Shown here: positions 10,898 through 27,414 of the stretch, piece by piece | Position numbering within the stretch: position 1 is the first letter of the stretch | Layout of the letters: each line of letters starts with the position of its first letter | From: a virus | Virus record (IMG/VR): IMGVR_UViG_3300029319_000247 | Coordinates: 1 to 32,592 of that record | Direction: 5' to 3' (one strand) | Length of the DNA stretch: 32,592 bases | Translations under genes and position numbers: made by a program | The notes under the pieces: generated by a model | Seen by the model: only the letters and a program-made list of their open reading frames with translations | The model's database searches: none | What the model was told of the DNA's origin: nothing

Positions 10898-11971
10898 TTA
10901 CTCGGTTGTGCGACCACCACCAGCAGCACAACCTTGAGCTGCCAACTTGGTGCAGATCATGTTGCCTTGCATGGCGAAGATAGCTGTGACTACATCTTGA
11001 TCACCAACACGCTCCTTAAATTCCGAGATATTCGGGGCTTCAAGCATTGCAAACTCAAAATAGTCTGTGTTGAGCATGTAAGTAACACCGTCAGCCGGAC
11101 CAGTAGTACCAAATGCTGTGGTGTCGGTGCGATCAAGATCGATCGATGAATGAATTTCTGCCAACCCAATGCTTAGGGCCAGAGTGTTTGTCTTGTCTGT
11201 CTTGTCTTGGTAGACATTGACACGAATGTTGTCACCACGAGTAAACGACTCGTAGTTTGTATACGTATCATCATCCATGATGACCATGTCTGGTCCCTTA
11301 CCGACACCGCCCGCATAGTGAGCGCACTTACGATAAAGTCTACGAAGATGACTGACACCGACTTCCATACCACCACCAATCTGTTCAAACTGGTTAGCGT
11401 GGAAGTAGCTAGCACTCTTAGCGACATTTTGAACTACGTCAGTTTGCGTTGCAAACGTTTGGAAGTCGAGAAGACCGTTAGTTACACCCGTTCCGATACC
11501 TGTTGAGTGGTTACCATTAAGGGTCTGCATGCCCAACAATTCAGATGTGTTGAACGCAAGACCGCGACTTGTTCCTGTAAGAAGGAATTTGTTTAGGTCT
11601 GCCTTAGCAGCATCCATAGCAGATTGAGGATATTCTTCGATAAGACGAATAACAGCCAGCTTTCCGCTGTTCTGGTTCAATTCCTTCTTAGGAATGTTAA
11701 TCGCCATAACCATACGATGAGGCTCAACCTCAAACTTACGGATTTGTTGACGACGGGTCATGTTCAACAGTTCGTCACCGACGTAGACACCAACACCGCG
11801 AGCAGGAGCACCACCAGAAAAGGAACGTTCAATCTTAGTTCCGCCTTCCATGGGCATACGTGCTTTCGAGTTAAGTGCTTCGAACAGTTCGTTGCTGCGA
11901 ACAAACGAATTTACCAGAGGTCCACGGAGATCCGCGAACGTAGTGTTCAGCAATTCAGTACTGATAGTCAT
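10898..11971 (-). CDS. Major capsid protein, HK97-like (357 aa)
   Basis: ATG at 11971 is the first gene of the leftward structural transcript. The sequence shows the usual layout of an HK97-fold capsid protein without a long scaffold domain. It has a helical N-terminus (TTFADLRGPLVNSFVRSNELFEAL), an E-loop-like strand region (GGTKIERSFSGG...VGVYVGDELLNMTRRQQIRKFEVEPHRMVMAINIPKKEL), a helix that starts 'QSAMDAAKADLNKFLLTG', and a peripheral-domain stretch with 'HLRRLYRKCAHYAGG...PDMVIMDDDTYTNYE'. The P-domain/A-domain strands follow (VTYMLNTDYFEFAML), and the C-terminus is Gly-rich (CAAGGGRTTE). It packs with the decoration genes on one transcript. The scaffold-like candidate is on the opposite strand about 6 kb away. 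Confidence 0.93.
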   Translation of the reverse strand: MTISTELLNTTFADLRGPLVNSFVRSNELFEALNSKARMPMEGGTKIERSFSGGAPARGVGVYVGDELLNMTRRQQIRKFEVEPHRMVMAINIPKKELNQNSGKLAVIRLIEEYPQSAMDAAKADLNKFLLTGTSRGLAFNTSELLGMQTLNGNHSTGIGTGVTNGLLDFQTFATQTDVVQNVAKSASYFHANQFEQIGGGMEVGVSHLRRLYRKCAHYAGGVGKGPDMVIMDDDTYTNYESFTRGDNIRVNVYQDKTDKTNTLALSIGLAEIHSSIDLDRTDTTAFGTTGPADGVTYMLNTDYFEFAMLEAPNISEFKERVGDQDVVTAIFAMQGNMICTKLAAQGCAAGGGRTTE

Positions 11972-12179
11972 TTTGTTCTCACTTGAAATAAAATATTAGA
12001 AAAACACTTCGCCTGCCCGCGATGCAAAAACTGGACCCAAAGGGCTACCCAACACATCTAAATGGGTGCTCTTTCTGTATACAACACAAAATAAAACGCT
12101 GCAAGGCAGATATTTATATTACCAACCAAAAATATTTGTAACTAACCAAATATTTTCGCGTCTACATGATCATGATACT
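11972..12179. promoter_or_regulatory. Divergent control region between capsid and terminase genes
   Basis: About 208 nt separate the leftward capsid start from the rightward terminase start, so both transcripts must be launched in or read into this region. It is AT-rich near the terminase. Two similar motifs, AACCAAAAATATTT (12124-12137) and AACCAAATATTTT (12144-12156), start 20 bp apart, close to two helical turns, as expected for a paired regulator site. No convincing -35/-10 pair was found, so phage-specific promoters are possible. Confidence 0.45.
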
Positions 12180-13850
12180 ATGACCACTATGACAACAAAC
12201 ACAGCAAGAAAACGAAAAAAGCGTAACACAAGTAACGCAGGCGCAGATTTTGCAACCGCGCCAGGAATACATGACGGAAAAGTAAAAGCACTTTTCTCTA
12301 CACCCGATGCCTTTGTGTCTATGTGTCACATTGTCCGAGAAGATGAGTCAACTGGATTCATGGAGCCAACCCACACACAGAAGAAACTATTAAAAGCCTA
12401 CGATGAAAACAGATGGCTGATGGTAAACAAATTCCGTCAGGCAAAAATTACAACCGTGTCCGTCATGTTGCTGCTGCGAGACTGTATGTATCTCAGCGGC
12501 GTCAAGGGTTTGCTTATTGCAGAACGCCAAGACACGGCAGAAGATATCTTTGAGAGGATACTGTTCGCATACAACAGGCTCCCTGCCGATGTAAAAATGC
12601 CGCTTGCGCCAGGACGAAAAGCAGGTGCTACACAAATGCAGTTCATACACGGCGGGGGAATTAAGGTGCTCACCGCTGGCGGACGAAGCCCTGCTATCGG
12701 ACGATCTATCGATAGGCTGGTAATTACAGAGTTTGGTGAAGCACAGTGGCAACGCAAAGCTGCAATCAATATCTTTCCAACGGTAAACAAGCGACCCAAT
12801 GCAAAAGTTATCCTTGAGTCTACTCCAGGTCGTGCCGGATCACACCACGAACAAATGTGGCGCTCAGCGTTGGAAGGCACGAGTCGATTTCATCCATTGT
12901 TTCTTGAGTGGTGGGAAGATGAAAGTTGCCAAGAGAAAGATGAGTCGTTCGAACCAAGCGCCAGTGAATTGGAATACTTAGACCGCCATGATGGCATGAG
13001 TAAATTTAATCTCGCCTTCAGACGACGTGGACTAAATACCGAGTTTGTTGGAGACACAAGACTATTTTCATGCAAATACCCGTCGGACGAATATGATGGG
13101 TGGCTCGGAAGTACAAACCCCGTCATGCCCGCAGAGATTCTAAAGCCTCTGTTAGACCAAGCAGAAAAAGATCCCATACTTGGGCCGTACGCTTGTCATG
13201 AGTTTGAGCCACCAAAACCTGGACACAAATATGTAATCACTGCTGACCCCGCAGGATTCGGTAGCACAGGCGATAAATCAGCACTGACTGTTTGGGATGC
13301 ACATGAATGGCGCGAAATCGCTTTTTGGGAAGACAGAGAAACGCCCGATCGATTCGCGCAAAGACTTCGTATTGTTCAGAAACGATACCTTGGCGCCCTG
13401 CTTGCTGTTGAATCAAACGCCACCGCATGTATCGCAATCTTAAAAGATCAAGATACGCGAAACCTCTTGTGGACGGACAGAAACCACCCTGGTTGGTACG
13501 CCACACAGAAACGTATTCAAGAATCTGAAGCACGACTAGTACGTATGCTACGGGAAAAAGAACTAAATATCCGTAGTCGTGGTATGTTACACCAGCTACT
13601 CAACTATGACGGCACACGAAAAAAGCGTGTACGCGGAGAAGATGGAACGGTTCACCACTTTGACCGAGCAAGGACTGCCGTTATGGCAGCAGACATTCTT
13701 GCTCGCAGACATTTCACTCAAGAGACATCTGCTGTAGAATCGGATTACATTCCAGGACAGATTACAATCAAACAACTCGATCGAGTTAAATCGAAAAAAC
13801 TTCAATCAGTAAAAACAGTTTTTAAACCCGCATCACAGATATGGAAATAA
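12180..13850 (+). CDS. terL: Large terminase subunit (556 aa)
   Basis: The packaging motor ATPase and nuclease. From ATG at 12180 (ATG at 12189 is an equal alternative; neither has a strong ribosome site, and the frame stays open back to a GTG at 12066). The ATPase P-loop variant is KFRQAKITT (about residues 84-92), the Walker B strand LVITEFGEA (about 180-188), and the coupling motif ESTPG (213-217). The C-terminal RNase H-like nuclease shows its acidic triad: ADPAGFGSTGDKS (about 355-365), AVESN (E at 411) and HFDRARTAVMAADIL (D at 495). Length is normal for the family. It opens the rightward block and is followed after 1 nt by a small gene, then the portal. No small terminase subunit could be recognised. 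Confidence 0.94.
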   Translation: MTTMTTNTARKRKKRNTSNAGADFATAPGIHDGKVKALFSTPDAFVSMCHIVREDESTGFMEPTHTQKKLLKAYDENRWLMVNKFRQAKITTVSVMLLLRDCMYLSGVKGLLIAERQDTAEDIFERILFAYNRLPADVKMPLAPGRKAGATQMQFIHGGGIKVLTAGGRSPAIGRSIDRLVITEFGEAQWQRKAAINIFPTVNKRPNAKVILESTPGRAGSHHEQMWRSALEGTSRFHPLFLEWWEDESCQEKDESFEPSASELEYLDRHDGMSKFNLAFRRRGLNTEFVGDTRLFSCKYPSDEYDGWLGSTNPVMPAEILKPLLDQAEKDPILGPYACHEFEPPKPGHKYVITADPAGFGSTGDKSALTVWDAHEWREIAFWEDRETPDRFAQRLRIVQKRYLGALLAVESNATACIAILKDQDTRNLLWTDRNHPGWYATQKRIQESEARLVRMLREKELNIRSRGMLHQLLNYDGTRKKRVRGEDGTVHHFDRARTAVMAADILARRHFTQETSAVESDYIPGQITIKQLDRVKSKKLQSVKTVFKPASQIWK

Positions 13851-14088: not shown

Positions 14089-15882
14089 ATGGCTTCTAAG
14101 CTATCTAAATTAATTGATAGACACCTTGACTATTACAAGCGTGCCGAGAAAAAAGATTTCGATAAAGCGAGACGATTTTATCGCGGTAATTTCTTCGCAT
14201 CTAGTGATAGCGATATTCAAGGACTTAGTCAGTCATCTTATCTGTGCTCGAAAAACCTAATCTACGCCATCGCAGACACAGCGGTGAGTGCTCTACTCGG
14301 CCCAAACCCATCAGTGGGCGCGGTAGCAAGAACCCCGGTGTCTCAAGATGCTGCACCTGCTGTAACGGGACTGATTGAATATGTATTTGAATCAAACAGG
14401 TTTAGGCGAAAAGCGGCAACAGCACTAATCGATGCCGTATTATGCAAGCGAGGAATCTTTAAAACTGGTTGGGACTCGAAAAGAGATATTCCAATTGTCC
14501 GAGCAATTAATCCGTCCAGCGTTTTCTTTGACCTAACCGTTCGAGATCCAGACGATATCCGTTATTGGATTGAAGCCACAGTAATCTCGTTCGAAGAATT
14601 CAAGCAACGAGTCAAGTCAGGTCAGTACAATGCTGAACTGGTAAAAGAGATTCGACCAGATCGATACCCGAAATGGTTGCTTGATGACAACCAAAAAAAT
14701 CAGACCAACCATGTACGTGATGCATTTCAATGGGTGACTGTATACGAATACTATGACCGCGAACGCGGTATGATACAGCACTACATCAAACAAGCTGATG
14801 CCGTCGTATTCGAAGACAAGATTGACTACATCCCATATTCAATGTTCACATTGAATCAATCAGGAATCGACTGCACAGGTCTCAGTGAAGTGCAGCTTGT
14901 CTTGAAACAACAAGAGACAATCAATGATCTGCTGACACACATGAAGCAAATCACGTACCTGCAAATCCCACGAGTGATGTATGACTCAGGTCGAATCACA
15001 GAAGAAGATTTAAACAAAGCAGTAGAGTCTTCTGCGGGATCATTTGTAGGAATCAACCCATCAAACGGTGACGCCCTACGTAGTTTAGCTACACTATTCT
15101 ACGAAATGCCCATACCCGATAGCCCCGCAGGTGTTAAAGAATTCATCGCTCGACAGGAAGACGATGCTGCTTTTATTTCAGCACTTGCTGAAGCCGCCAG
15201 AGGCCAGGTCGCTGGGGCACGAACCGCCACCGAAATGGCCATCATCGATGCCCAACTACGAACTCGTCTCGCAACAAGAGAAGGTCACCTTAATGACGCG
15301 CTTGAAGATGTGGCTAAAAAGGTTTTTTACCTCTGCAAAAAGTATATGCGTGAAAAGAGATTGATTCGAATTTCAGGTAGCAACAAGTGGGAGGAATTGA
15401 ACCACCAAAACCTTATTGAGATTGATGTCGACTTTGAAATGGTTGGGCACAATCCAATTAGGCGCAACCCTGGAATGATGGCAGAAACACTGATTCAACT
15501 GCTACCATTCTTGTCTCAAAACCAAAACGTTGATGTTCGAAGGTTGACGGAAGAAATCCTGACTAACCTTGGACTACCTGCCCGCATTATGATCCCTGAA
15601 GCAGAAATTATTGCACAACAAGAAGCCATGGCAGCACAACAACAGGCTCTTATTCAGGCTGAGCAGCAAGCTAATCTTGGTGGGGCAGCAGCAGGAAAGC
15701 CTGCTATCGAGGCACAGGAAAAGGCTCAACTGCAACAACTGCTAGCATCGCTGCCGCCTGACGAGGCAGAGGAAATGATTATGGCCATAGCACAACAACA
15801 AGCTGGTGGAGAAGTACCTGTAGACGACACAGGGGAAGCACTACCAGGAGGCGGCGGGGCACCCATTAGGGGCGAAGCATAG
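14089..15882 (+). CDS. Portal protein (597 aa)
   Basis: The dodecameric vertex ring through which DNA is packaged and ejected. ATG at 14089 has AACGGAGAT upstream. The N-terminal part (LIDRHLDYYKRAEKKDFDKARRFYRGNFF) and 'SKNLIYAIADTAVSALLGPNPSV' are typical portal openings. The middle carries 'INPSSVFFDLTVRDPDDIRYWIEATVISFEEFKQR', a wing-type domain. The long helix with 'QETINDLLTHMKQI' and 'RGQVAGARTATEMAIIDAQLRTRLATREGHLNDALEDVAKKVF' matches the stem/clip/crown order of the family. The last 90 residues are Gln/Ala-rich, then acidic and Gly-rich, as in many phages. It directly follows terminase in a head-packaging block. Confidence 0.93.
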   Translation: MASKLSKLIDRHLDYYKRAEKKDFDKARRFYRGNFFASSDSDIQGLSQSSYLCSKNLIYAIADTAVSALLGPNPSVGAVARTPVSQDAAPAVTGLIEYVFESNRFRRKAATALIDAVLCKRGIFKTGWDSKRDIPIVRAINPSSVFFDLTVRDPDDIRYWIEATVISFEEFKQRVKSGQYNAELVKEIRPDRYPKWLLDDNQKNQTNHVRDAFQWVTVYEYYDRERGMIQHYIKQADAVVFEDKIDYIPYSMFTLNQSGIDCTGLSEVQLVLKQQETINDLLTHMKQITYLQIPRVMYDSGRITEEDLNKAVESSAGSFVGINPSNGDALRSLATLFYEMPIPDSPAGVKEFIARQEDDAAFISALAEAARGQVAGARTATEMAIIDAQLRTRLATREGHLNDALEDVAKKVFYLCKKYMREKRLIRISGSNKWEELNHQNLIEIDVDFEMVGHNPIRRNPGMMAETLIQLLPFLSQNQNVDVRRLTEEILTNLGLPARIMIPEAEIIAQQEAMAAQQQALIQAEQQANLGGAAAGKPAIEAQEKAQLQQLLASLPPDEAEEMIMAIAQQQAGGEVPVDDTGEALPGGGGAPIRGEA

Positions 15883-22555: not shown

Positions 22556-23158
22556 CTACTTCTTAGCTGACGCAGGTATACCCTGAGTCGGGGCAATTGC
22601 GTCGTTAAGCATATCTAGAACCTTCATCAGACCTTCTGGTGGGCCATCGTCACGAGCCACTACCTTCACATCATACTTGGCGCTGTTGTCGCTTTTACGG
22701 CTATTCTCGCTGTGGTTAGCCACAGAACCATGAACCGTAACGTCACAACTAAACAACCCGGCGTTGTACTTAGCGTGTGCTGTAAGTTCTGCCTTGGTAT
22801 CAGATGTGGTCTTAGCCGAAGTAGACGACTTTACTTCCATCGTAAAGCGGACCTCGGCTTCTTTTACAGACAAACTTGGTGTGTTGATGATGGCAAGCAA
22901 AGGAACCTGTAGGTCTACCTTCTCCAACGAAGTGGTACCATCAGCACCCTGAACAGGTTTGTTGAAACTAAAATCAACTGTGCGGGCAGACATGTTTCCG
23001 TTTGTGTCTGCATTCAGTCCTACGTCTTTGATGAAGTCACTTGAGGCTTTGGCCAACAGCGTTTGCGCTGAACAAGCAGCCTTGAGAGGACCACCAATAA
23101 GCTGGTCCATGGGGAGACCACCAAACTGGTCTGACATCTTTACGAGTTGATCTGGCAC
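22556..23158 (-). CDS. DUF2589-family protein (200 aa)
   Basis: GTG at 23158 is chosen because AGGGAG, overlapping the previous stop, is correctly spaced; ATG at 23137 has a weaker site. The sequence follows the DUF2589 pattern closely: 'LPMDQLIGGPLKAACSAQTLLAKASSDFI', 'RTVDFSFNKP', 'KVDLQVPLLAIINTPSLSV', 'VRFTMEVKSS', 'VHGSVANHSENSRKSDNSAKYDVKV', and 'DDGPPEGLMKVLDMLNDAI'. The family's function is not known; in bacteria such genes often occur as a pair. Here it sits with its partner (23168-23659) inside the phage structural region, and may be a virion or membrane-associated accessory protein. Confidence 0.88.
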   Translation of the reverse strand: MPDQLVKMSDQFGGLPMDQLIGGPLKAACSAQTLLAKASSDFIKDVGLNADTNGNMSARTVDFSFNKPVQGADGTTSLEKVDLQVPLLAIINTPSLSVKEAEVRFTMEVKSSTSAKTTSDTKAELTAHAKYNAGLFSCDVTVHGSVANHSENSRKSDNSAKYDVKVVARDDGPPEGLMKVLDMLNDAIAPTQGIPASAKK

Positions 23159-23167
23159 GGGTGCTCC

Positions 23168-23659
23168 CTACGGAAGTAGTTTAATTAACTGATCATCGAT
23201 TCTTGCATAACCTTCTGGCGGCTCACTGCCTTTGAAAGTCAGCTTTAGTTTAGCAGTATTACTTTCTTTTTGAAACCAAGAAGTGTTTGGGCAAGGACGG
23301 ACCATTAACCTTCCTTTTTTCTTACCTGACTCCAAACCAGAAATTTCGACAGACATTTCTACCTCTAATTTGTCTACTCGTAAACTCTGACCCGTCGTAA
23401 GCGATTGTAATGGCACAGGAATATTCTTTTTCGTAAGTACCCCATCTTCCCACATAGGGATCTCCATCGTCACCATCTTAGGGGAATATACGTCCCTACC
23501 ACTCTCGTCCTTGACTGGGTTCCCCTCTTCATCAACTTTTAATTCCCAAAACTCCTGATTCATTATTGAATCTAATTCATGGCGCTCAGCCATGTCTGTA
23601 GCTGCGACTACAGCAGATTGTATGGAATGAACAATGTCGTCTAAAGAATGATCAGGCAT
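23168..23659 (-). CDS. DUF2589-partner protein (163 aa)
   Basis: ATG at 23659 has a strong GGAGGG site. The N-terminus is a long helix (HSLDDIVHSIQSAVVAATDMAERHELDSIMNQEF). A strand region 'KMVTMEIPMWEDG', 'KKNIPVPLQSLTTGQSLRVDKLEVEMSVEISG' and the ending 'AKLKLTFKGSEPPEGYARIDDQLIKLL' follow. The final 'FKGxEPPEGxARxxDxLxKLL' segment matches the companion type found beside DUF2589 proteins and parallels the 'PPEGLMKVLDMLN' end of its neighbour, so the two are probably distant relatives. Function unknown. It is the first gene after the tRNA. Confidence 0.85.
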   Translation of the reverse strand: MPDHSLDDIVHSIQSAVVAATDMAERHELDSIMNQEFWELKVDEEGNPVKDESGRDVYSPKMVTMEIPMWEDGVLTKKNIPVPLQSLTTGQSLRVDKLEVEMSVEISGLESGKKKGRLMVRPCPNTSWFQKESNTAKLKLTFKGSEPPEGYARIDDQLIKLLP

Positions 23660-23676
23660 AGGCCCTCCAAGTTAGG

Positions 23677-23749
23677 CTGGGACGGTTGGACTTGAACCAA
23701 CAACTTTCGGATTAACAGTCCGACGTTCTGCCAATTGAACTACATCCCA
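23677..23749 (-). tRNA. tRNA-Asn (anticodon GTT)
   Basis: A complete 73-nt cloverleaf is readable on the minus strand. Acceptor TGGGATG/CGTCCCA (one G-T pair), D stem GTTC/GAAC, anticodon stem TCGGA/TCCGA with loop CTGTTAA giving anticodon GTT, T stem GTTGG/CCAAC with loop TTCAAGT, discriminator G. CCA is not encoded (CCT follows). Its 5' end abuts the stop codon of the FmdB-type gene with no gap, so it is cut out of the same transcript. Confidence 0.95.
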
Positions 23750-23935
23750 TTAAGAACTTTTTAGTCCGTAATTATCTCGAGCCCAACCGTCTCCATTAAG
23801 TTTAAAGCTGGTTAAAGCTGGCTTTTTCTTCATCTGCGTGTCACACTTCTGGCAGTCAGGCCAAGGGGCAGCAAAACTCTGCAACGTTTCCAAAACTCTT
23901 CCACAGGCGTTACACTCAAAAACATAAAGGGGCAT
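23750..23935 (-). CDS. FmdB-type zinc-ribbon protein (61 aa)
   Basis: ATG at 23935 with TTGGAG upstream gives MPLYVFECNACGRVLETLQSFAAPWPDCQKCDTQMKKKP, the standard opening of FmdB-family putative regulatory zinc ribbons (MPxYxFxCxxCG ... P.Cp.C). Four cysteines form the likely zinc site. The in-frame upstream ATG at 23989 is rejected: it would run through the divergent gene and lacks this family start. The role is unknown, possibly regulation or a small structural metal protein. Its start codon is separated from that of the divergent CxxCxxCC gene by a single base. Confidence 0.88.
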   Translation of the reverse strand: MPLYVFECNACGRVLETLQSFAAPWPDCQKCDTQMKKKPALTSFKLNGDGWARDNYGLKSS

Positions 23936-23936
23936 A

Positions 23937-24281
23937 ATGGATATCTCCAAAGAAAAGTTTCCCTGCACAATGTGCGGTGCGTGTTGCAATCAGGCAGGGA
24001 ACCTCAAGCTGACATGCGAAGAAAAAGGAATAGATCTAGGATTTAACGTCCCGATCAACGACGACGGGTCCTGCGGACACCTCATCCCCATCACTAGGCC
24101 CGATGGGGCCCCCGGTATGGGATGCGCTATTTACGACTCCCGCCCCAATATTTGCAAAATCGGCACGAGCATTCCCGTCGGAGTCAAACCCCAAGAGTAT
24201 TTCCGTCTCTGCGCTGTCTCCTGCACTGACCTGCAAATCTTCTACGGGATACCGGATTCCTATCGGGTCAAGATTGAATGA
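23937..24281 (+). CDS. YkgJ-type CxxCxxCC metal-binding protein (114 aa)
   Basis: The protein begins MDISKEKFPCTMCGACCNQ, with the C-x2-C-x2-C-C cluster characteristic of YkgJ/PF03692 putative zinc- or iron-chelating proteins. Further cysteines follow in 'GSCGHLIP', 'MGCAIYDSRPNICKIG' and 'FRLCAVSCTDLQ', and the order matches small phage-borne members of the family. AAAGGGG lies upstream of ATG at 23937. The metal-bound function is unknown. It is the only rightward gene in an otherwise leftward block, starts one base from the divergent zinc-ribbon start, and its 3' two thirds lie antisense to the end of the 24036-24551 frame. Confidence 0.88.
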   Translation: MDISKEKFPCTMCGACCNQAGNLKLTCEEKGIDLGFNVPINDDGSCGHLIPITRPDGAPGMGCAIYDSRPNICKIGTSIPVGVKPQEYFRLCAVSCTDLQIFYGIPDSYRVKIE

Positions 24282-24551
24282 CGCAATAAAAGGTGTGTGC
24301 GGTCCAGCCCAACACCCCTCGATGTTAAAACAGAAAAACTCTTCTGCCTGCTGATACGTCATGTCGCGAGCCATCAAAACTTCAATACACTTTTCACGGT
24401 CGTAAAGTGCCAAAGGACTTGTACCGGCACGGGAAATAAATCCAACCAACGCAGCATTGAAACCCTCATACAAAAGCGCATCAGGGTTTAGTTCCTCGAT
24501 CGTACGAGCCAACTCGTCTTCATCAATACCGTCTGCAATCATTCTGACCAT
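24036..24551 (-). CDS. Conserved phage protein (ALxxGFxxALxG...CIExLMxRDM) with antisense tail (171 aa)
   Basis: Residues 1-90 (LNPDALLYEGFNAALVGFISRAGTSPLALYDREKCIEVLMARDMTYQQAEEFFCFNIEGCWAGPHTPFIA) match a small phage/bacterial protein type I recognise, which normally ends soon after 'GxxTPxF'. Function unknown. Here the frame runs on for 80 more residues, antisense to the CxxCxxCC gene, to a stop at 24036. Whether that tail is real is uncertain. ATG at 24551 or at 24542 (a 4-nt overlap with the upstream gene's stop) may be the start; neither has a strong ribosome site. Confidence 0.75.
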   Translation of the reverse strand: MVRMIADGIDEDELARTIEELNPDALLYEGFNAALVGFISRAGTSPLALYDREKCIEVLMARDMTYQQAEEFFCFNIEGCWAGPHTPFIASFNLDPIGIRYPVEDLQVSAGDSAETEILLGFDSDGNARADFANIGAGVVNSASHTGGPIGPSDGDEVSAGPVVVDRDVKS

Positions 24552-25141
24552 CCATGTGGAACCAGGTGACCTGGACCATAAGGTGTGTTTTGTAGTTTGA
24601 TCTCTTTCCGATTCATATCTAGATTCTTATACATCGGAAAATCATGCTTAGTTTCGTCTGGACTCCAGTAGAAAACAATAACCTCTTCCCCTGATCGGCC
24701 CCAATATCGCTGAAAACCGCCAGATTTGTAGTATTCGTGGACAGCAGATTGCTCCGCAGGCACCCGTTCCGCGTCTGACCAGCGGTTCCACCCCTCTGGC
24801 GGCGAAATCAGACCGTCGTCATCCCGGCGAACGTCCAAATCCGACGCAGATTCCACCGTTTCGGCTGTAGAAGGTGGTGGATCGTCCGAAATAGCGGGCA
24901 AAACCAGCGCTGGTGGGGGCGCAAGCACCGAATCAGGCGCAGATTCCACCACATCGGGCGGTTTTGCAGGGACAGCGGCCTCCATCACAGCCAATCCACG
25001 CAAAAGTGCGACCCTGGCCACCACATTCCGGTCAACTTTGACCCCAAATTCGCGTGCCGCAGCAGATTGACCGACCATTGGGACCAAATCGTCCAGCCGA
25101 CTAAGCATTTCTTCCTCAAGTGTAAGATTTATAGGGTTCAT
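24539..25141 (-). CDS. Ribbon-helix-helix-like DNA-binding protein with extra C-terminal domain (200 aa)
   Basis: ATG at 25141 with ACGAGGC upstream is preferred over the ATG at 25156 and a longer reading from 25312. The first 55 residues (INLTLEEEMLSRLDDLVPMVGQSAAAREFGVKVDRNVVARVALLRGLAVME) look like a ribbon-helix-helix domain: strand, helix 'LSRLDDLVPMV', then 'RNVVARVALLRGL'. A Pro/Ala/Asp-rich linker carries two similar 'VESA.D' pieces, and a separate C-terminal domain (about 120-200, PPEGWNRWSDAER...EYYKSGGFQRYWG...) is unrecognised. It is the first gene leftward of the non-coding region and is a good candidate for regulating it. This stretch looks more GC-rich than its neighbours. Confidence 0.82.
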   Translation of the reverse strand: MNPINLTLEEEMLSRLDDLVPMVGQSAAAREFGVKVDRNVVARVALLRGLAVMEAAVPAKPPDVVESAPDSVLAPPPALVLPAISDDPPPSTAETVESASDLDVRRDDDGLISPPEGWNRWSDAERVPAEQSAVHEYYKSGGFQRYWGRSGEEVIVFYWSPDETKHDFPMYKNLDMNRKEIKLQNTPYGPGHLVPHGWSE

Positions 25142-25402
25142 TTTGCCTCGTGTCATGGTGGTTCTAAGGTTGGGTACCCCAGGAACGTACCATGAGAGGC
25201 TTTTCGTGGCAAGGCGGTAATACCACAGCGGTAAGGTAGTTTGAAAACATGTCCGGTCGAGGAAAAGGCCCTTCGGTATAGGGGAGGTAGGACATAAAAT
25301 GGGGTATGCCACCCCCCTCGGTGGGTTGGGAACGTTGTACTCCGGTGGTGCTTTCTACCTCTTTCCCAAGACAAGACCGGGGGGTTTACTCCTTCGGTGG
25401 GC

Positions 25403-25470
25403 GGATTGGGGTTATCTCACCCTTTGGCGGGGCGGATTGGTGGATTGGGTGGATTGGTTTGGCGGATTGG
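25403..25470 (+). repeat. Five copies of GGATTGG
   Basis: GGATTGG begins at 25403, 25434, 25442, 25451 and 25464, mostly as GG[CT]GGATTGG, next to several TTCGGTGG units. The strand bias is extreme: G-rich on the plus strand. Could be a binding array, a strand-specific priming site, or low-complexity sequence. Confidence 0.75.
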
Positions 25471-25718
25471 GCTTCGGTGGATCGTTGAATAAAAGGAGTC
25501 GCTTGCGCGACCAGTATATTCCACTCGTCTCTATCCTTTAGTCTCCTTCCTCGCGTCAAAGGAAATGAACCACACACTGCGTGTGACCGACCGACAAACC
25601 GTAATGATTCTAATAGCTTACATCTTTTGTTGTGGTCCGGTTTTCGGATCTATGGTTCTTTCCCTTTTCCCGTCCAGGGACTAAACCGTTCCTCGCGGTT
25701 CTTGCCCGCCCACAGCCC

Positions 25719-25737
25719 CAATCACGATGCGTGATTG
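25719..25737. promoter_or_regulatory. Palindrome CAATCACG-ATG-CGTGATTG
   Basis: Perfect 8-bp arms around a 3-bp centre. Its core ATCACG-ATR-CGTGAT recurs at 25893-25907. Two such sites 174 bp apart suggest an operator for a dimeric regulator, for example the neighbouring RHH protein (inference). Confidence 0.6.
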
Positions 25738-25760
25738 CCGGTAGCGAACGAATGGACTTA

Positions 25761-25788
25761 TCAAAGCGGCAAGCTTCGCTCGCTTTGA
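25761..25788. repeat. Inverted repeat TCAAAGCG / CGCTTTGA
   Basis: 8-bp perfect arms (25761-25768, 25781-25788) with a 12-nt loop, lying between the two ATCACG palindromes. No T-run follows on either side, so it is not a terminator. Confidence 0.55.
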
Positions 25789-25892
25789 TTTCTGTCTTAT
25801 GGTCGGCAAGGACTTTACTTCTTGTTTTTATTCTAAGGTAAAGTGCGATGCCTTTCCGGTGATCCCTTCGGGCCAAGGCGTATAATCGCAGA

Positions 25893-25907
25893 ATCACGAT
25901 ACGTGAT
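25893..25907. promoter_or_regulatory. Palindrome ATCACG-ATA-CGTGAT
   Basis: Second copy of the ATCACG-ATR-CGTGAT site, located just after TATAATCG (25881-25888), which resembles a -10 box; no matching -35 box is seen. Confidence 0.6.
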
Positions 25908-26002
25908 CCATATTAACAGCGATTAAACACTCACCGAACAGCCCGCCGACCTTGCCAACTATTGCTGCCGCCAGTAGAAAAGGGGGCTTCTTGGATGAGT
26001 TG

Positions 26003-26045
26003 ATATTGTTTATACTTTGTTTTTAATATTTAGAATAAACAATAT
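26003..26045. repeat. AT-rich inverted repeat ATATTGTTTAT / ATAAACAATAT
   Basis: Perfect 11-bp arms (26003-26013, 26035-26045) around a 21-nt AT-rich spacer. AT-rich inverted repeats in phage non-coding regions are often origin or regulator sites. Confidence 0.65.
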
Positions 26046-26060
26046 AAACACATCTTGTTA

Positions 26061-26102
26061 CGGTCACCACGCCGTTTGTCCGTGTAAACACGGCCATGAC
26101 CG
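26061..26102. repeat. Nested hairpin with CCGTGT-AA-ACACGG
   Basis: An outer CGGTCA/TGACCG pair (26061-26066, 26097-26102) encloses a perfect CCGTGT-AA-ACACGG palindrome (26080-26093). The inner GTGTAAACAC differs by one base from the GTGTAACCAC repeats found at 27686-27949. Confidence 0.55.
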
Positions 26103-26135
26103 AGATAGCTTATTAGTTTTTCTTTTTGTTTATTA

Positions 26136-26164
26136 TTAAAAGGAAAAAGCCTAAACACTATCAT
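26136..26164 (+). promoter_or_regulatory. Candidate promoter for the structured RNA
   Basis: TTAAAA (26136-26141) and TATCAT (26159-26164) are separated by 17 bp, resembling a sigma70 promoter with a weak -35. Predicted start is near 26171, just ahead of the long-stem structure at 26188. Confidence 0.4.
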
Positions 26165-26170
26165 AGCGGA

Positions 26171-26370
26171 CCCCTTTTCGGAACGGTGTAGCTTAGATTT
26201 TGACCGCGACTAAATCCTCGCGGATTTACCGAGGCCGCAGGCGCAGGAATCAGCCCTGATCGGGCTGATACTTTTGCTTCATACTCAAAATCTAATCTAC
26301 TACTACAAATGCCCCGCCACATGGAAACATCTCCAGATTCCCCTCGGGATGAAATCAGGAGATATTTTTT
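26171..26370 (+). ncRNA. Candidate structured RNA or leader with terminator-like 3' hairpin
   Basis: A long stem closes the structure: 26188-26203 pairs with 26285-26300 at 15 of 16 positions, including a perfect TTAGATTTTGA / TCAAAATCTAA. Inside are two perfect hairpins, TAAATCC-TCGC-GGATTTA (26211-26228) and ATCAGCCC-TGATC-GGGCTGAT (26249-26269), so the fold looks like a three-way junction. Downstream, ATCTCC.GATT pairs with AATC.GGAGAT (26329-26363), followed by ATTTTTT, like an intrinsic terminator. The same 3' arm also holds a GGAG ribosome site for the ATG at 26371. It may be a free RNA or a cis-acting leader. No known riboswitch class is recognised. Confidence 0.5.
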
Positions 26371-26430
26371 ATGTACCAACTCCATGTAGCAAATGCAGAT
26401 GTGGCTCGGACTTATGAAATGTTTCCTCTT

Positions 26431-26459
26431 TTCACTTCGGGTGAACATGGTGTTCATCC
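26431..26459 (+). promoter_or_regulatory. Two mutually exclusive leader hairpins
   Basis: TTCAC-TTCGG-GTGAA (26431-26445) and a GGGTGAACA / TGTTCATCC stem (26439-26459, one G-U) share the GTGAA segment, so only one can form. They lie 30 nt before the preferred start at 26491. A switch is possible but unproven. Confidence 0.35.
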
Positions 26460-26490
26460 ACTAACTACATCATTCTATAAAAAGGAAAGT

Positions 26491-27414
26491 ATGATGACTA
26501 CTGTAACTGAAATCAAAATCCCACGTAGCACTAAAGAGATCACCGGACTGTCGACAGCAAAGCTGAAGAAACTCGTTGCTCATCTTGGTAACCTCATCGA
26601 AGGACAACTGGCTGTCATCGAGAGACATTACGGCTCTCATGAGAAAGGCGCTGGTGCAAACTGCGAGGTGCGTGCTCACGTCGGCCAGTTGTTCCAAGGC
26701 AGCAACGTGACGTATGGCACAAAGACATACATCCCGAAAGATTCCAACGAATCCAAGTCCGTTGGCCGTGATTTCCTGGTGTGGATGTGGGACCGTAACA
26801 TCCTGGCTCCGAAACCTGCGGGAACAGGTTCCTTCGGTGGCAAAGCCAGCATCCAGGAACTCACTATCAACAGTAAGCCGACCTGGCTTCACTGCTTCTT
26901 CTCCGAAGCGCAGTTCATGAAAGCGCTGGAGCGAGTTGCAACCGGTTGGGAAGACCGCATCATCGAGAGTCTTCCTGCTCGGAAGCTAACCGAGCCAACG
27001 TGGCGCGAGGTTGCTGAAGGCCACCTCACCGTCTGGTTGTGGCTTCAGCACGTCACCGACATCAGCTTCTTTGCGTATGGTGGCTACTCGAAGAACGGGT
27101 GGTGGTCACCAGGTTACGACGAAGACAACCTGGAAGCTTATGGCAACGTACCTGCACCTGGAGAGTTTAGCTGGAAGCAGCGCTTCGATGCAGGCCGACG
27201 TGGTCCATACCGTCAGCCAACGGTACGTAAGGACAGTGTTCGAGCAGACGGTGACTACTCGGAACCTGGCCTCCACAACCCAGGCACCGGGACGTATGAC
27301 GCTCCCGAGAACTCTCACGATACCTTCGAGAATCGTGATGCCGACCGTGACGAGCGCAACGCACTTATGCGTGCTGTGAACAAGAACAATCGTCAGTTGG
27401 GCAACTTCCGTTAG
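26491..27414 (+). CDS. Isolated, probably highly expressed protein of unknown function (307 aa)
   Basis: ATG at 26491 (or 26494) follows AAAAGGAAAGT, a good ribosome site. The frame is open back to ATG at 26371, adding 40 residues, but that start lies within or behind a hairpin. The N-terminal part is helical (STKEITGLSTAKLKKLVAHLGNLIEGQLAVIERHYGSHEKGAG). The middle is aromatic (GRDFLVWMWDRNIL; HLTVWLWLQHVTDISFFAYGGYSKNGWWSPGY). The last 90 residues are Arg/Asp/Asn-rich and probably disordered. Codon choice and higher GC differ from neighbouring genes and suggest strong expression. It stands alone between two non-coding regions and ends at a strong terminator. No family recognised; a replication or regulatory role would only be guesswork from position. 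Confidence 0.85.
   Translation: MMTTVTEIKIPRSTKEITGLSTAKLKKLVAHLGNLIEGQLAVIERHYGSHEKGAGANCEVRAHVGQLFQGSNVTYGTKTYIPKDSNESKSVGRDFLVWMWDRNILAPKPAGTGSFGGKASIQELTINSKPTWLHCFFSEAQFMKALERVATGWEDRIIESLPARKLTEPTWREVAEGHLTVWLWLQHVTDISFFAYGGYSKNGWWSPGYDEDNLEAYGNVPAPGEFSWKQRFDAGRRGPYRQPTVRKDSVRADGDYSEPGLHNPGTGTYDAPENSHDTFENRDADRDERNALMRAVNKNNRQLGNFR

Follow-up and report, generated by a model that had tools for sequence, protein, structure and literature searches.

A candidate large ornate non-coding RNA, most likely minus-strand, between early and late genes of an uncultured phage genome

Hairpins annotated at 26136-26370 of a virus record appear to be one end of an ornate non-coding RNA gene of ~880-900 nt, spanning about 25495-26373 and most likely read from the minus strand. 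Relatives keep this non-coding region at the same position, its helices change sequence yet stay paired, and whole hairpins are gained or lost. The evidence supports an RNA, transcribed from the minus strand, and we consider it fairly probable that the annotated hairpins belong to the 5' domain of a large ornate RNA encoded on that strand between an early gene (26491, plus strand) and the late block (from 25159 leftward). The initial annotation of a structured RNA of no known class therefore holds in kind but not in size, its 26136-26370 covering one end of a ~880-nt region. The region may give rise to one RNA or to several.

Genomic setting and relatives

The window, by which we mean the whole 32,592-nt stretch analysed (a 32.6-kb virus record), carries phage-like genes. 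Those relevant here, with one tRNA gene, are as follows.

10901-11971, minus strand: major head protein
12066-13850, plus strand: terminase
14089-15882, plus strand: portal or head-tail adaptor
23675-23749, minus strand: tRNA-Asn(GTT), found by Rfam search, 1.7 kb from the RNA region
24542-25159, minus strand: the first late-side gene, with relatives on 26 viral contigs
26491-27414, plus strand: early-side divergent gene, starting at 26491 and not 26371, since relatives align from there

The late-side gene and 26491 are about 1.3 kb apart with no conserved reading frame between them, and open reading frames on both strands of the RNA region are interrupted by stops or frameshifts in relatives. 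The product of the early-side gene matched neither Pfam nor PHROG families and gave an AlphaFold pLDDT of 43, too low for use. It diverges very fast, with 17-24% identity to relatives as against 80-84% for the terminase. Elsewhere in the window, two adjacent proteins at 22556-23659 (minus strand) match DUF2589 (PF11655).

IMG/VR contains a clade of relatives, six contigs of which hold the region at the syntenic position: L095 (also L008), L096, L097 (also L087 and G020), L098, L099 (also L054) and L100 (also L055). The region is thus represented by seven genomes only, the window and these six, some of them closely akin to one another. L096 can be aligned to the window across most of the region, and differences between genomes consist of entire hairpins gained or missing. 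Some 150 nt of window positions 25530-25690 are absent from L096, the TAATCGC helix listed below is absent from L099, and the size of the RNA region ranges from about 450 to 900 nt. Scans with RNA motifs and with the protein of gene 26491 returned no new genome clearly bearing the RNA, and one loop-motif pattern also matched contigs L122, L125 and L126. Cultured phages yielded no DNA or protein homologue of the RNA region, gene 26491 or the late-side gene, and GTDB genomes no relatives of the late-side gene or the terminase. We take the clade to be one of uncultured marine phages, its habitat being judged from the nature of the collection.

Helices that change sequence and stay paired

The proposed element and its parts are listed in minus-strand order.

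25495-26373, minus strand: proposed large structured non-coding RNA (synteny in L095-L100, fold z, covarying helices, unconserved ORFs)
26325-26367, minus strand: 5'-terminal hairpin with a CTCC/GGAG stem, the terminator and ribosome-site hairpin of the initial annotation; in the window, L095, L096, L098, L099 and L100, with compensatory pairs
26297-26306, minus strand: GUAGUAGUAG motif immediately 5' of P1, invariant in 6/6 P1-bearing genomes
26285-26295, minus strand: 5' arm of closing helix P1, 8/8 pairs in six genomes
26271-26284, minus strand: conserved GUAUGAAGCAAAAG motif within P1; the window and L096 agree fully and L097 nearly so, and L098 and L100 have GCAAAAG as well
26249-26269, minus strand: P4 hairpin with pentaloop GATCA, covarying in the window, L096 and L097
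26234-26242, minus strand: P3 mini-hairpin GCC-TGC-GGC, the same in L098, CCC-ATA-GGG in L099 and L100
26211-26228, minus strand: P2, a covarying 7-bp hairpin with a GCGA (GNRA) tetraloop
26193-26203, minus strand: 3' arm of closing helix P1, 8/8 pairs in six genomes
26104-26162, minus strand: hairpin H1, covarying in its outer arms; covarying arms GATAG/CTATC, GGAGTGAAG/CTTCACTCC and GGGATGAAG/CTTCATCCC
25994-26054, minus strand: long A+T-rich hairpin, its place taken by another A+T-rich hairpin in L096
25878-25930, minus strand: helix TAATCGC/GCGATTA around an ATCACG hairpin, rewritten in L097 and L098, whole or nearly so in L095, L096 and L100
25812-25844, minus strand: hairpin ACTTTAC/GTAAAGT with a loop motif like that of H1; the same loop letters on a different stem in H1 of L099/L100
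25686-25698, minus strand: CCGCGAGGAACGG hairpin motif, its CCGCGAGG core common to L096, L099, L100, L102, L103 and L109
25519-25528, minus strand: ACGAGUGGAA motif, common to the same six contigs
25495-25512, minus strand: hairpin GTCGC-GCAA-GCGAC with a GNRA loop, conserved in L097, L099 and L100
25399-25470, minus strand: C-rich, weakly structured tract of CCAATCCGCC repeats, repeats in 7/7 genomes
25205-25265, minus strand: strongly conserved block TTTTCAAAC...CCTTACCGCTGTGGTATTACCGCCTTG that precedes the late genes throughout the clade and recurs in every aligned relative

The closing stem reported earlier, GTAGCTTAGATTTTGA (26188-26203) with TCAAAATCTAATCTAC (26285-26300), is real and has 15 of 16 positions paired, and so are the two perfect inner hairpins, TAAATCC-TCGC-GGATTTA (26211-26228) and ATCAGCCC-TGATC-GGGCTGAT (26249-26269). 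Compensatory changes among homologues, named beforehand as the deciding test, were found in several helices (P1, P2, P4, H1 and the 26325-26367 hairpin). Because MAFFT misaligns the variable inserts over the whole domain, conserved anchors were used to fix the positions at which arms were compared.

P1, located directly inside the invariant CTACTACTAC (plus-strand letters), is borne by the window and by L096, L097, L098, L099 and L100. Seven of its eight pair positions vary, each with two to four pair types, and the arms read as follows.

Window: TTAGATTTTGA/TCAAAATCTAA
L096: TAAAACATTGG/CCAATGTTTTA
L097: TAAAAAGT/ACTTTTTA
L098: GAAAAATCT/AGATTTTTC
L099: GCACCGGCTA/TAGCCGGTGC
L100: GAAAAATCC/GGATTTTTC

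Arms swapped between genomes mostly do not pair. In the outer 8 bp, 48/48 cells pair when each genome keeps its own arms and 30 on average after permutation, a comparison in which placement of arms by hand beside conserved anchors favours pairs and the permutation control offsets this only partly. Two of the 720 permutations were equally good, one of them an exchange between L098 and L100, whose arms are identical. P2 occurs with four different stem sequences (window, L098, L099, L100) around a loop of constant size; all 28 pairs form, against 22 with permuted arms, and 1 of 24 permutations did as well. RNAalifold on the minus strand recorded two-sided changes in 17 of 74 pairs for the window and L096, and in 13 of 96 for L098-L100. 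Two-sided compensatory changes in several helices, the general mark of a large structured non-coding RNA, are thus present. The closing stem is rewritten in most relatives with its pairs kept and the 7-bp hairpin covaries; we therefore regard the structure as conserved. It does not code for protein and has no entry in Rfam 15.

For a 200-nt stretch the folding energy is -64 kcal/mol (z = -4.1; none of 200 shuffles equal) and the entire 893-nt structured region reaches a z of about -7.5 to -8, but a coding stretch elsewhere in this genome also reaches z = -4.6, so covariation rather than energy bears the case.

Strand, extent and competing explanations

The initial annotation assumed a plus-strand RNA. 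Wobble pairs, GNRA loops, A-rich loops and stability favour the opposite, and given that the element is an RNA we consider the minus strand likely. One-sided changes in helices that two relatives have in common comprise 14 A.C (G.U on the minus strand) and 3 G.T, an asymmetry with a one-sided p = 0.006 that is uncorrected for kinship among genomes of shared ancestry. Reading the minus strand gives five distinct GNRA tetraloops; the plus strand gives none. Unpaired bases are 37-47% A on the minus strand in 7/7 genomes; on the plus strand they are T-rich in most. Minimum free energy is lower on the minus strand in 7/7 genomes, also relative to composition-keeping shuffles, though weakly in most. 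Consensus folds give -77.7 kcal/mol (minus) versus -53.0 (plus) for the window and L096, and -80.6 versus -78.3 for L098-L100; z is likewise lower on the minus strand in six further relatives. Against this, mismatches counted genome by genome are even, with 27 G.T and 29 A.C. No promoter for a minus-strand transcript was recognisable, and a search for a phage RNA polymerase in the relatives gave no match, its positive control giving none either.

On the plus strand, window positions 26356-26373 present GGAG followed 6-9 nt on by a start codon (ATG; TTG in L098) in 7/7 genomes, for which a minus-strand RNA offers no explanation. This arrangement, with the GGAG in the 3' strand of the hairpin, speaks for the plus-strand RNA first annotated, a leader of gene 26491 or a small RNA ahead of it whose ribosome site is masked. 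A second hairpin ahead of the gene (26439-26459), also present in L096 and altered in L097, would fit as well. We nonetheless regard a plus-strand RNA as unlikely: the strand evidence favours minus, and relatives conserve neither the reading frame from 26371 nor the T-run nor the promoter pair. The promoter proposal, TTAAAA-17-TATCAT, is present at 26136-26164 (9/12 matches) but is not beyond chance, because four such sites were found against 1.8 (sd 1.2) in shuffles. Its bases mostly coincide with the 3' half of H1, whose arms covary in relatives, and a sigma-70 promoter with conserved hexamers above chance was not found at this position. The terminator proposal survives in its hairpin, with arms in 26325-26367 and a conserved stem, followed by ATTTTTT; the T-run is unique to the window copy, and a conserved G+C stem with T-run, as expected of an intrinsic terminator, was not found at 26329-26370. 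The sequence does contain GGAG and the ATG at 26371, but the ORF that begins at this ATG is conserved in neither frame nor length. ATG 26371 was rejected as a true gene start because frame and length are not conserved; L097 reads ATG-TAA and L098 is without an ATG.

The preferred minus-strand RNA would have its putative 5' end near 26373 and its putative 3' end near 25495. Read leftward from 26373, the CTCC/GGAG hairpin and GUAGUAGUAG are followed by P1, which encloses P4, P3 and P2. H1, more hairpins, the TAATCGC helix and the CCGCGAGG and ACGAGUGGAA motifs come next, and the GNRA hairpin at 25495-25512, the C-rich tract and the conserved block at 25205-25265 close the series. The tract at 25399-25470 consists of direct repeats of GGCGGATTGG (CCAATCCGCC on the minus strand; CCAATCC repeats) in 7/7 genomes. 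Its C/G ratio is 1.91 in the window and 1.1-1.5 in relatives, its MFE per base is low and its z is about 0 to +3; it may resemble a Rho utilisation (rut) site or a set of iterons. The block at 25205-25265 may be a late promoter.

We hypothesize that infection would yield the RNA as a separate transcript and that, by analogy with current views of large ornate phage RNAs, its fold would let it serve as a scaffold or assembly. The C-rich unstructured tract beyond it would let transcription stop before the late genes.

The same arrangement might instead suit a cis-acting leader on the minus strand, that is, the 5' part of a late transcript that controls it by antitermination or attenuation, with no separate RNA. 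The RNA lies directly upstream of the late genes on the same strand, and the order of RNA, C-rich tract and late gene is constant in 7/7 genomes. We think such a leader improbable, however, because the block at 25205-25265 between RNA and late gene resembles a late promoter of its own, and the antiterminator RNAs of phages known to us are smaller and less modular than the present region. More doubtful still is a DNA-level element, a replication origin or packaging site working as DNA through its hairpins and CCAATCCGCC repeats: the position between divergent gene blocks, the direct repeats and the equal G.T and A.C counts within genomes would suit it, but the nested multi-branch architecture, long loops, asymmetric wobble changes, and GNRA and A-rich loops are RNA-like.

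Known RNA families and other occupants of the locus

The absence of a known class was borne out when cmscan of Rfam 15 on both strands of 23500-27000, at E up to 10, returned only the tRNA-Asn. Loci of the relatives, searched with Rfam 15 at gathering score, contained no known riboswitch or other family. The region is best read as a large ornate phage RNA of a new family, like GOLLD and ROOL in kind and unrelated to them in sequence.

GOLLD forms a multimeric RNA cage and is induced during lysis. Like GOLLD, the present element is phage-encoded, has several hundred nucleotides or more and an ornate conserved structure, its strand and ends being putative; unlike it, it has sequence motifs and helices of its own, and the GOLLD covariance model is unmatched here on either strand. 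GOLLD is described as very large, ornate and phage-encoded, with aquatic metagenomes among its sources, one conserved and one variable part, and a frequent location near tRNA genes (PMC12286853). Here a tRNA gene lies 1.7 kb off in the window, and the loci of the six relatives carrying the RNA region yielded no tRNA gene. ROOL (Rumen-Originating, Ornate, Large) is another large ornate phage RNA, without known function (PMC12286853); the likeness lies in this character, and its Rfam model is unmatched here. Phage K (Kayvirus) produces long non-coding transcripts, functionless as far as is known (PMC9241854), which are likewise long and non-coding but are defined by transcription and nearness to tRNA genes, so that they are likened to our element by description alone.

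Only a handful of giant ornate RNAs are known from phages, with functions still to be established. Another family, unrelated to these and with a defined genomic place, would be an independent case for what such RNAs do for the phage, and relatives that show variable and constant parts would provide an alignment for building a covariance model.

More tentatively, the fixed early/late junction of this clade of uncultured marine phages could hold an interchangeable series of large ornate RNAs, with helices swapped on a scaffold with the short motifs CGCGAGG, ACGAGUGGAA and GUAGUAGUAG and other RNA types in L102, L103 and L108-L111. Such a series would possibly form a new class of RNA machine in phages, on a level with GOLLD and ROOL. 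L102, L103 and L109 hold an otherwise different RNA at the same place, yet have CCGCGAGGnACGAGTGGAA in common. The motif ACGAGTGGAA occurs 21 times in the collected loci against 2.7 expected, a count inflated because the loci overlap. In L102, L103, L108, L109, L110 and L111, different folded regions occupy the same locus and end in a GTGATCGGGAC...GGTCAC hairpin.
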